A stretch of 64,000 nt of DNA, from assembly GCF_003149045.1 (NCBI RefSeq), contig NZ_QGDU01000010.1:1-64000 (forward strand). Direction: 5' to 3'. The DNA comes from Fibrobacter sp. UWR4 (GTDB lineage Bacteria > Fibrobacterota > Fibrobacteria > Fibrobacterales > Fibrobacteraceae). Made by a program: the position numbers and the translations under genes. Positions 787 to 48,505 of this stretch are shown here, piece after piece. Positions within the stretch are counted from its first letter, which is position 1, and the number at the start of each line of letters is the position of its first letter. The notes below the pieces were generated by a model. It was not told where the DNA came from. It did not search any database and saw only the letters and a list, made by a program, of their open reading frames with translations.

Positions 787-1641
787 ATGAAAAAACTTTT
801 CTCTCTTTTAGTTTGTTCGCTCTTGTTCGCCTGCTCTTCAGATACCGACGACTATCGCTACAGTGTACCGGAAATTAGAGAATTCTCGTCCGCAAAAACA
901 TTCGGCGATTCCCTAATCTATATTGCCGACTCCCTAAGGGTGACCGACATCATAGACCAGTCCTTTTCAAACGGACGAAACGACGGTGACGACTCCAGCA
1001 AGAATCTCCAATTCCATGCCCGTGGCAGAAACTCTTCGATAGATGTTTCACTGGCTTTTAATCCTACGACATACGGAGGAAAAATCACTGTAGGTTGCCG
1101 TCCCATCATTTCAGGCAGCGATTACATCGTTTTTGACGACCCAAAATTTCCAATCGAAAAGGACGGTTATGTCCTTTCGCTCAAGGACTCCGTAAAAGTA
1201 GGAAACGCTACGTATCATAACGTCCTGATCTTTGATGCTTCAAAGAAAGACACTAACGTCTGCAACATGGAAAAATTCTACTACGCTGCAGAAGAGGGAC
1301 TTGTCAAGATTGTCACAAAAAACAAAATGGAATACACCCGCATCAGCGAAAGCGAGTACGAAGCCATAAAGACGGCAAACATCGCCACCCAGGATTCAAT
1401 TGCCCAGGCGGTAGCTGACTCCATTGCAAAAGCGCAGGCGGATTCCGTAGCAAAAGCATTGGCCGACTCCATAATGAAGGCGACGCAGGATTCCCTGGAA
1501 AGAGAAAGGATGGACAGCTTATACAAGGCTTTAGAAACCGTCTATGACTCCTTGTCGCCAAACATCAAGGACGCAGCGAACTGCATCAAAGACCTCGGCC
1601 TTGGCGCGACCCTTTCCAACATGAAAAAATGCCTTGAATAG
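787..1641 (+). CDS. Putative lipoprotein with Asp-Ser/Ala repeat tail
   Basis: No named family recognised. The N-terminus is a signal peptide with lipobox LFAC at residues 13-16. Residues about 20-190 form a globular part resembling the upstream lipoprotein (shared FGDSL). Residues about 195-245 are a helical stretch built on repeats of the form ADSIAKA, probably a coiled coil or extended spacer. The last 35 residues contain two Cys (CIKDL, KKCLE). It follows the first lipoprotein by 12 bases and is probably co-transcribed with it. A similar DSL/ADS-rich stretch interrupts the FKBP protein at 18826, so this may be a common spacer type in this organism. Confidence 0.75.
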   Translation: MKKLFSLLVCSLLFACSSDTDDYRYSVPEIREFSSAKTFGDSLIYIADSLRVTDIIDQSFSNGRNDGDDSSKNLQFHARGRNSSIDVSLAFNPTTYGGKITVGCRPIISGSDYIVFDDPKFPIEKDGYVLSLKDSVKVGNATYHNVLIFDASKKDTNVCNMEKFYYAAEEGLVKIVTKNKMEYTRISESEYEAIKTANIATQDSIAQAVADSIAKAQADSVAKALADSIMKATQDSLERERMDSLYKALETVYDSLSPNIKDAANCIKDLGLGATLSNMKKCLE

Positions 1642-1648
1642 GTCGGAC

Positions 1649-3061
1649 TTAACTTGAGATAAGCTTGCTGTTCTCGTCACAGTACTTCTTGCTTGCAAGC
1701 CGAATCAGATAAATTGTTCCGCGGAAGCAGAGCTCAAGGCACATGGCCATCCAGGCGCCACGAAGACCGTATTTTGTAACGAGGAATGCGGCGAGAGGGA
1801 GTCGCACGACCCACATGCTTACCAGATTCATGATGCTGGGAACGAAGGTGCTGCCTGCGCCACGGAAAACGCCGTTGGCAACAATGGAGGCTGCATAGAA
1901 AGGTTCTGCGAAAGCCTCGATTCTTAAAATGGCTGTACCCAATCTGCGGATTTCTTCGTCGGGTGTAAACAGGCCGATAAGTTCCGGAGCAAAAATGAAC
2001 ATGAGGACCGCGAGTAATGTCATCACCACCATGCCCAGGCCTGTCGTCATGAATCCCATTTTATAGACAAGGTCAAAACGCTTGGCGCCAATACCTTGGC
2101 CAATCAATGTGGTAGCGGCATGACTGATTCCGTGGCCAGGCATGTAGCATAAGCTTTCAATGGTAATGGCAAATGAGTTTGCGGCGATGGCTGCCATTCC
2201 CAAGGGGGAGACGATGGCGGTGAACATCACGTAGGCGCTACACATGACCAGATGCTCCAAACCGATGGGCCATGAAATGCGGAATGCCTTTTTCATCTGT
2301 TTTGCAGAGAAACAAATTTTTTCCTTGGCGCGGAGGCGGAGGCTCTTGCTTCTGAAAAGCAGGAAGTAGAGCATCAGCGACATGATAATGAATTCCGTGA
2401 TGACGGTGCCAAGGGCTGCTCCCATAACGCCAAGGCCTGCGCCGGGCATTGTGAAGCTGATACCGGCGACGGTAATTTCACGGGTTCCAAAAATCAGGAA
2501 GAAATTTAGGATGACGTCCAAAAAGCAGGAGAGAACTTGCAGGGCGCTGGGTAATTTCATGTTGCCGCTGCACTGCAGCATGCCTGCGGCCATTCCATTC
2601 AGCTGCATGGCAGGAAGGCCAAGGGCGATAATCAGGAAGTAGGTGGATGCGTTTTGGTGAAGGCTTGCGTCGGCTCCCAACAATCCAGGAATCTTGTCGT
2701 GCATGAAAACGCCGAAACCCATGAGGAGGGCGCTAAAGCATATACCGAAAAGTAGGCCCACTTTTACCAGGTTCCGGGCGCGAACGTCTCGCTTGGCACC
2801 GATGGCGTGGGCGATCTGTACCGTAAACCCGGGGCTCACCGCATAGCACAAACATCCCAAAAGCCATGTGCTGGAAGCAACGAGTCCGATGGAAGCCGCT
2901 TCGCTGGAACCCAGGTGCCCCACCATGGAGGCGTCAATATACTCCATGACGATGTTGGATATTTGCGCTAGAATTGCAGGAAGACTGAGCTGCCCAATTA
3001 AAAGCAGCATCTGGCTTCGGCTGAGAGCCTTTCCATCTCGTAGTTGTTCTAGGCGGTCCAT
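1649..3061 (-). CDS. MATE family multidrug/Na+ efflux protein
   Basis: Inner-membrane antiporter of the MATE family (NorM/DinF type), which exports cationic drugs or metabolites using Na+ or H+ gradients. The protein has about 470 residues, the normal family length, with about twelve hydrophobic helices in two homologous halves. The N-terminal half starts with LPAILAQISNIVMEYIDASM, matching the family pattern at helix 1. The ATG at 3061 is preferred; the frame stays open to 3103 but that extension is hydrophilic and would approach the divergent azlC start. The substrate cannot be read from the sequence. It converges with the lipoprotein operon across a 7-base gap. Confidence 0.9.
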   Translation of the reverse strand: MDRLEQLRDGKALSRSQMLLLIGQLSLPAILAQISNIVMEYIDASMVGHLGSSEAASIGLVASSTWLLGCLCYAVSPGFTVQIAHAIGAKRDVRARNLVKVGLLFGICFSALLMGFGVFMHDKIPGLLGADASLHQNASTYFLIIALGLPAMQLNGMAAGMLQCSGNMKLPSALQVLSCFLDVILNFFLIFGTREITVAGISFTMPGAGLGVMGAALGTVITEFIIMSLMLYFLLFRSKSLRLRAKEKICFSAKQMKKAFRISWPIGLEHLVMCSAYVMFTAIVSPLGMAAIAANSFAITIESLCYMPGHGISHAATTLIGQGIGAKRFDLVYKMGFMTTGLGMVVMTLLAVLMFIFAPELIGLFTPDEEIRRLGTAILRIEAFAEPFYAASIVANGVFRGAGSTFVPSIMNLVSMWVVRLPLAAFLVTKYGLRGAWMAMCLELCFRGTIYLIRLASKKYCDENSKLISS

Positions 3062-13275: not shown

Positions 13276-13308
13276 AGAGACAAATATAGTTAGGTTAAGG
13301 CAAAGCTG

Positions 13309-13333
13309 ATGCTGAGTCAAGCTCAGCATGACG
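13309..13333. repeat. Short dispersed palindrome
   Basis: Eight-base perfect arms ATGCTGAG and CTCAGCAT flank a five-base loop (TCAAG) and are followed by GACG. The same arm-loop-GACG plan occurs at 43699-43723 and inside trmB. It lies 34 bases upstream of the 12874 gene start. Confidence 0.65.
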
Positions 13334-43678: not shown

Positions 43679-43698
43679 AAAAACTGATGCTGAAAGAG

Positions 43699-43723
43699 AT
43701 TCTGAAACAAGTTCAGAATGACG
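43699..43723. repeat. Short dispersed palindrome
   Basis: Arms ATTCTGAA and TTCAGAAT flank ACAAG, followed by GACG. The same plan occurs at 13309-13333, and a close copy lies within trmB at 48319-48343. It sits between the PAP2 start and the nrnA stop. Confidence 0.65.
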
Positions 43724-47716: not shown

Positions 47717-48505
47717 TTAAAACTTTTTGACGAGGACCCGCCACAATTGCTGGCGGGCTTCTTTGTATTTACGCTCGAAGGCGGTTTCCGGAAACTCCGG
47801 GTTGAAGGCTTCGCAGGAAATCACTTGAGGTGTCATGCCGAGGGCGCTCGGCATCGGCTGTTGGGCTGCGTCAGCCAGGATGCGGGAGGCTTCCGCAAAT
47901 TCCCTGGCGTAAATTTCCCAGTTGGTACGCAATTCGGTGACGTCACCGAGAGCCGTCAAGGTGGGGAAGATGGGATGGAGGTGGAACCTGCGGGTGGCTT
48001 CACTTTCCTTGGGCCAAGGGTTGGGGTAAAAAACTGCGTGGTGCAGGATGTGCCAGCGGCCTGCCTGCTGTTCTTCTAGCGCCAGGCGCCAGAAATCCAG
48101 AAGTTCCCCGCGGACCCAGAATGCGTTGGACGGGCTGCTACCGGTCATGCCGAGATCGCCGGATGTCGGCTGTTCCAGTTGGTGTACATTTCCCGCCTTA
48201 CTGAGACGTATGGCGGACTTGTCTATGCCGATGACGGGTACGCCTGGAAACCTGCGGGCCAGGTGCAAGGTGCTTTCACCGGTGCCGCATCCGGAGTCCA
48301 GGATGACTGCTAAAGCTGATCCTGAAACGAGTTCAGGATGACCTTGGTAAAAATTCTGGACGAACTGTTTTGCGGATTCAAAAGCTTCTCGGGTGTGGTC
48401 TGCCACAGGACGTAAAAAACGGGTGGCTGCATACTTGCGAACCACCTGTTCAAGGTTCTTATAAAGATCTTCTTGATTGGATGTGACTGCGCGGACGCCA
48501 GTCAT
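47717..48505 (-). CDS. trmB: tRNA (guanine-46-N7)-methyltransferase with palindromic inserts
   Basis: TrmB methylates G46 of tRNA using S-adenosylmethionine. 262 residues. The SAM motif LDSGCGTGESTLHLA (about 68-82), GIDKSAIRL and the signature FYPNPWPK (about 158-165) are present, and the C-terminal part matches the family. Three segments carry palindrome-derived sequence: YQGHPELVSGSA (about 53-64), EQPTSGDLGMTGSSPS (about 110-125) and QQPMPSALGMTPQ (about 215-227). All lie outside the catalytic motifs and keep the frame. Its ATG overlaps the stop of the 48505 lipoprotein (TAATG). It is an odd partner for that operon. Confidence 0.88.
   Translation of the reverse strand: MTGVRAVTSNQEDLYKNLEQVVRKYAATRFLRPVADHTREAFESAKQFVQNFYQGHPELVSGSALAVILDSGCGTGESTLHLARRFPGVPVIGIDKSAIRLSKAGNVHQLEQPTSGDLGMTGSSPSNAFWVRGELLDFWRLALEEQQAGRWHILHHAVFYPNPWPKESEATRRFHLHPIFPTLTALGDVTELRTNWEIYAREFAEASRILADAAQQPMPSALGMTPQVISCEAFNPEFPETAFERKYKEARQQLWRVLVKKF
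47737..47762 (+). terminator. Possible terminator inside the trmB coding end
   Basis: CCCGCCA and TGGCGGG enclose seven bases and are followed by CTTCTTTG, a weak T-run. It lies 26 bases beyond the 46485 gene stop and overlaps the last codons of trmB. No other terminator stands between these convergent genes. Confidence 0.45.
47835..47854. repeat. Palindromic insert a in trmB
   Basis: Perfect arms ATGCCGAG and CTCGGCAT enclose GGCG within the coding sequence, giving the residues PMPSALGMT on the minus strand. Confidence 0.7.
48149..48170. repeat. Palindromic insert b in trmB
   Basis: Imperfect inverted repeat GCCGAGATC and GGATGTCGGC around GCC, translated as PTSGDLGMT on the minus strand. 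It shares the LGMT reading with insert a. Confidence 0.6.
48319..48343. repeat. Palindromic insert c in trmB
   Basis: Arms ATCCTGAA and TTCAGGAT enclose ACGAG and are followed by GACC. It translates as GHPELVSGSA on the minus strand, a reading of a palindrome that I know from scattered repeats in several bacterial groups. Its arm plan equals the intergenic copies at 13309 and 43699. Confidence 0.75.

Follow-up and report, generated by a model that had tools for sequence, protein, structure and literature searches.

A TrmB-like methyltransferase gene of Fibrobacter sp. UWR4 carries three short segments that are best explained as insertions of GTC- or CGTC-tagged palindromes of the REP type into stretches that encode loops, where selection keeps the in-frame hits and the copies subsequently erode. 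We give this reading a probability of roughly 0.88. The gene lies in the window analysed here, a stretch of 64,000 nucleotides from contig NZ_QGDU01000010.1. Two of its segments match an element that is dispersed throughout the 3.6-Mb genome, and the corresponding sites in relatives are empty, short or occupied by other palindromes.

Host gene is a TrmB-like paralogue

The reading frame at 47717..48505 (minus strand) encodes 262 amino acids with zero internal stops. Its product scores 33.5 bits against Pfam PF02390 (Methyltransf_4), for which the gathering score is 24 bits, but reaches just 21 bits with TIGR00091, the TrmB equivalog model, for which the cut-off is 112.65. In contrast, a second gene elsewhere in the genome scores 125 bits for Methyltransf_4 and 114.7 bits for TIGR00091, and this gene is the real TrmB of the genome. 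The 21-bit score and the separate passing gene rule out canonical TrmB as the identity of the host gene, which had been named trmB in the first-pass annotation.

TrmB, a tRNA (guanosine-46-N7)-methyltransferase, nevertheless provides both the nearest fold and the nearest sequence relatives of the host protein. An AF2 model of this protein (mean pLDDT 90.2) has TrmB as its closest solved fold, and the sequence profile is also nearest to TrmB. Because the protein falls below the equivalog cut-off, the true TrmB is encoded elsewhere and TrmB is the closest solved fold, we classify the host as a TrmB-like, SAM-dependent methyltransferase paralogue and assign no substrate to it.

Homologues of the gene are present in 76 of 80 genomes of the genus Fibrobacter, with no internal stop among the matches listed. 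Core dN/dS values between homologues range from 0.07 to 0.29 and are mostly 0.09–0.17. These low values, together with the open frames among the matches listed, indicate a gene under purifying selection rather than a pseudogene.

Three segments occupy loops of the protein

In gene orientation, the three segments are copy c (GTCATCCTGAACTCGTTTCAGGATCAGCTTT), copy b (AACAGCCGACATCCGGCGATCTCGGCATGAC) and copy a (AACAGCCGATGCCGAGCGCCCTCGGCATGAC). Copy c (48311..48342, minus strand) is a 32-nt element of type A whose inverted repeat at 48319-48339 forms a perfect 8-bp stem with a 5-nt loop. It matches the element consensus exactly and scores 45.7 bits (E 2.3e-14) with R1, a covariance model of the dispersed element. 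The copy is read in frame as GHPELVSGSA at a site called S1 (residues 53-63), which has an N-terminal helix before it and motif I after it. Copy a (47832..47862, plus strand) is a 31-nt element of type B with a perfect 8-bp stem and a 4-nt loop (inverted repeat 47835-47854), an R1 score of 36.4 bits (E 7.5e-11) and siblings elsewhere in the genome. It is read antisense and in frame as PMPSALGMT at site S3 (residues 212-225).

Copy b (48144..48174, plus strand) is read antisense and in frame as PTSGDLGMT at site S2 (residues 108-120). All three segments had been described as perfect or near-perfect inverted repeats, which holds for copies a and c but not for copy b, whose own inverted repeat consists of 5-bp arms around 12 nt and is at about chance level for a gene of this length. 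With these short arms and an R1 score of 10.4 bits (E 0.43), copy b was rejected as a palindrome and is kept solely as an eroded homologue of copy a. The two segments have equal length and the same end boxes, and 24 of 31 positions are identical in an ungapped comparison, whereas 2000 shuffles of the codon order of the gene never exceed 21 matches. Since this identity lies beyond all shuffles, copy b is classified, on sequence grounds, as an eroded 31-nt member of the same kind as copy a. The orientations agree with the original description, with copy c inserted one way and copies a and b the opposite way.

In the AF2 model, sites S1, S2 and S3 are all loops between helices and strands. Relative to the shortest relatives, the net gain is about 10-11 residues for copy c, 7 for copy b and 13 for copy a, which revises an earlier estimate of 12-16 residues each.

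Just below 48308 on the minus strand, on the downstream side of copy c, the motif I codons GTCATCCTGGACTCC look similar to the element's first half, and we take this likeness to be a coincidence of the codon choice for VILDS. An origin of copy c by local duplication of these codons was considered and rejected, as the match of copy c to the dispersed family extends to the tail. Furthermore, homologue L062 has the same motif I codons and an S1 without a GTC-tagged palindrome.

A tagged palindrome is dispersed in the genome

The element is a dispersed sequence of 31-32 nt that can be written as GTC-ATnCYGA-loop-TCRGnAT-C-RGCT. A degenerate pattern made from copy c yields 50 matches in the 3.6-Mb genome compared with 0 for a reversed control, and a type-B pattern yields 15 compared with 0. 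The R1 model, which was built from 47 copies with the host-gene copies excluded, recovers about 97 genome copies at E below roughly 0.01 (E<0.012). Compensatory changes are frequent in the stem, with 30 cells in which both sides are changed versus 8.7 in shuffles. The outer AT pairs of the stem are invariant, and the loop has 5 nt in type A and 4 nt in type B.

The GTC that precedes the stem is also invariant; both it and the AT pairs were scored among copies selected with patterns that themselves contain GTCAT. In 49 copies, the base before this GTC is C (20), T (12), G (9) or A (8). A conserved unpaired tail, C and then RGCTKT, follows the stem and was not requested by the search patterns.

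Two further full copies of type A are present in the window, neither of them inside a gene according to rough gene calls: 13301..13332 (minus strand, R1 44.5 bits) and 43691..43722 (minus strand, R1 37.2 bits). The second of these has a half copy (GTCATGCCG) 14 nt upstream. About 10 of the 49 copies (loci L003, L006, L009, L010, L014, L018, L020 and L023) have a half copy, TCATGCCG or similar, about 14 nt upstream. The half and full copies together constitute a composite of GTCATGCCG, N5 and the full element; the expected number of TCAT occurrences at this position is about 0.2. At locus L160 (G000 C39:14300-19800), copies are located at 1559, 2679/2719 and 3802/3842, a spacing of about 1.1 kb on one contig. 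Two of these three positions are pairs about 40 nt apart, and the locus possibly comprises tandem paralogues that each have copies.

The same loops are empty or refilled in relatives

An alignment of 74 homologues places the three segments at three variable sites, S1, S2 and S3. Outgroups, including Fibrobacter intestinalis, have few or zero residues at these sites. Among close Fibrobacter relatives, L057 has an empty S1, L067 and L078 have a short S1, L064 and L066 are short at both S2 and S3, and L091 is short at all three sites. The search for empty sites suggested by the first-pass annotation was therefore productive in Fibrobacter relatives as well as in outgroups. Its central proposal, that the gene accepted repeated palindrome insertions without losing its frame, is borne out by these empty and refilled sites along with the open frame and the low core dN/dS.

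Different palindromes are observed at the same sites in L033, L061, L064, L070, L073, L075, L079, L081 and L088. For example, L033 carries GTCATCCCCGGCTCGACCGGGGATC at S1 and GATTCTCGCCTTCGCGAGAATGAC at S2, and other S1 palindromes are GTCATCCCGGCCTCCGAGCCGGGATC in L064 and CATTGCGAGAAGCGAAGCGACGAAGCAATC in L061 and L063. The S3 palindrome GATCCCCGGTCAAGCCGGGGATGAC of L088 recurs in L087 with a second, 24-nt palindrome inside its loop. This pair represents a clean nested event, in which a GATCCCCGG...CCGGGGATGAC palindrome is found with and without the second palindrome, in frame in both cases.

To count hairpins across homologues, only those anchored on GTC or GAC were accepted; counts of untagged palindromes were uninformative because the core is also rich in weak inverted repeats. 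Tagged hairpins number 14 in S1–S3 (about 6.2 kb over all homologues) versus 4 in the core (36.7 kb), and the respective expectations from synonymous shuffles are 1.3 and 2.5. Mapped onto a core tree, the palindrome state requires 13 changes, and well-supported branches force at least 9 of these. The nearest relative, G040, has only about 86% identity in the core protein, a divergence too high for exact insertion boundaries or target duplications to be read. Its S1 insert belongs to a set of 24 copies dispersed through its own genome. The dispersed S1 copy in G040, the forced changes on the tree and the differing palindromes provide strong evidence that each lineage fills the same loops from its own stock of repeats.

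In-frame copies occur in many other genes

We placed 92 copies of the element, of which 58 are intergenic, 25 are inside genes and 9 extend across gene ends, in a genome with a coding density of 85%. These counts derive from genes called by a simple codon score on retrieved genome stretches, a method that overlooked at least the PriA, GH53 and phosphatase hosts that are evident from Pfam. The copies inside genes are read in all six frames, and at least one quarter of the element copies are in frame inside genes.

Hosts supported by Pfam are RibD (three copies), HemA, HemC, PriA, a YgiQ-type radical SAM protein, Dus, RsgA, an RlmL-like methyltransferase, a DEAD-box helicase, a bacterial topoisomerase (two copies), an aminotransferase, an ATP-grasp protein, an ABC-class ATPase, a histidine phosphatase, a GH53 enzyme and a TonB receptor. 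The HemC site is empty in L201 and L206 and holds other palindromes in L203, L211 and L212. The HemA site (hemA-hemC locus L193, homologues L199-L212) is variable too, with different palindromes across Fibrobacter species. In-frame palindromes are a widespread behaviour of the genome and are not special to the host gene.

Random insertion followed by selection as the probable mechanism

Under the preferred reading, several stem families of the element would insert widely in Fibrobacter genomes, irrespective of orientation. Selection would purge insertions that cause a frameshift, bring in a stop or fall in a structured part, whereas in-frame insertions in permissive surface loops would persist and add about 7–13 residues. 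Persisting copies would then erode, as copy b seems to have done. Because the same loops would be tolerant in all lineages, they could be refilled independently from the repeat family resident in each lineage. The element presumably moves as DNA by means of a mobilising enzyme, and the added peptides are probably mostly neutral. An exact insertion of 31 or 32 nt would shift the frame, and thus a net in-frame insertion requires that bases be gained or lost at the junction. This length, the weak family membership of copy b and the finding of no mobilising enzyme linked to the element count against this explanation.

Random insertion plus selection is the simplest account of the depletion of the element from coding DNA, the use of all frames and both orientations, the loop sites and the eroded copy b. 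We infer that frame-keeping results from selection and not from targeting. There is a small chance that Fibrobacter instead has a system that inserts GTC-tagged palindromes preferentially into loop-coding stretches and adds frame-restoring bases. If so, such a loop-preferring system would act as an inherent supply of short peptide insertions for essential proteins.

The persistence of insertions in a gene under purifying selection, and in the core enzymes HemA and HemC, could also mean that they are kept as useful peptides or as mRNA hairpins with a role in regulation, stability or interaction. This is improbable, however, as the sequence at the sites is unconserved among relatives, the sites erode, and the palindrome family, its orientation and its frame all differ.

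A dedicated Fibrobacter machinery that targets certain loops or repairs the frame, such that the in-frame outcome does not come from later selection, would account for the refilling of the same loops in independent lineages. It would likewise fit host genes that stay open despite an element length that is not a multiple of 3, and the nested in-frame palindromes that distinguish L087 from L088 (+24 nt). We nonetheless regard it as quite improbable, given that only 25 of 92 copies are inside genes versus a coding density of 85% (rough gene calls), that all six frames are used, as random insertion and purging predict, and that no enzyme is linked to the element, which is absent from the Y1 transposase locus.

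Finally, it is very improbable that the segments represent the usual loop variation of the family and are palindromic by chance, an idea that is compatible with the many relatives in which S1–S3 vary in length without a recognisable palindrome, and with copy b taken alone, but that is refuted for copies a and c by their matches to a genome-wide element including its unpaired tail, and is opposed by the concentration of GTC-tagged hairpins at S1–S3 and not in the core.

Relation to known palindromic repeats

GTAG REPs and REPINs are short dispersed palindromes that carry a tag at one end and are associated with RAYT transposases. The Fibrobacter element is likewise short, dispersed, palindromic and tagged at one end, but it lacks GTAG, and it neither flanks the single Y1 transposase gene of the genome nor has a copy in the 3.4-kb locus of that gene, which rules out a RAYT/REPIN system. 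This single Y1 transposase, which is IS200-like (L143, about 1440-1880, minus strand), lies between GC-rich inverted repeats (for example, CCCGCATAGCGGG) that are unrelated to the GTC element.

In a survey of CGTC-1 and CGTC-2 REP families, Proteobacteria, Chlorobi, Bacteroidetes, Spirochaetes and Thermotogae are listed as hosts and Fibrobacterota is not; the stem has 8-9 bp with AT as its first two bases and a 4-5-nt loop, the terminal tag is CGTC (or TGTC/CCTC), most but not all tails fit CCA, no linked transposase gene was found, and RPE-4 and RPE-6 of Rickettsia conorii belong to these repeats (BMC Genomics 2013, PMC3733652). The Fibrobacter element resembles these repeats in having an 8-bp stem starting with AT, a 4- or 5-nt loop and GTC at one end. 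Many dispersed copies, mostly intergenic and some intragenic, several stem subfamilies and the lack of a transposase link (checked here for the Y1 class alone) are also held in common. In contrast, the Fibrobacter tail is RGCTKT and does not fit CCA, C precedes GTC in only 20 of 49 copies, which is a mild preference, and repeated refilling of given loops across sister species is not seen in the sections of the survey consulted. It is well supported that the element works like a CGTC repeat; because the tail differs and the C before GTC is only mildly preferred, we do not claim full membership.

In-frame palindromes in conserved genes have been described in Rickettsia and Wolbachia (PMC3733652, PMC4224334). 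As depicted there, RPE-4, RPE-6 and the Wolbachia palindromic elements are small palindromes that lie in frame in conserved genes, add short peptides and leave the host gene open, and the Fibrobacter element is similar in each respect. Moreover, its copies in conserved genes are absent from homologues, as expected of RPE-like elements. The hosts in those cases are obligate intracellular bacteria, in contrast to a Fibrobacter with a 3.6-Mb genome, and the repeat families are different ones.

Searches of a collection of papers found nothing on Fibrobacter, which is not proof of absence, and no paper on the HPELVSG reading. The kind of element is known, whereas its occurrence in this phylum and the recurrent filling of the same loops are, to our knowledge, new. 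We are also aware of no previous description of such insertions to this extent in a genome of 3.6 Mb.

Implications

The best-known protein-coding palindromes are those of Rickettsia and Wolbachia, which can be attributed to relaxed selection in reduced genomes. HPELVSGS-like readings can be derived from repeats and are unfit as evidence of homology, which is a caution for annotation. Many sister species have independently filled the same loops with repeats of different kinds, a replicated natural experiment that makes the tolerance of proteins to insertion, the keeping of frame and the mover of CGTC-type repeats testable. The same process operates here in a gut anaerobe, a rumen-type bacterium of ordinary genome size, and reaches core enzymes, and it looks like a general, Rickettsia-like route by which short peptides are added to proteins.
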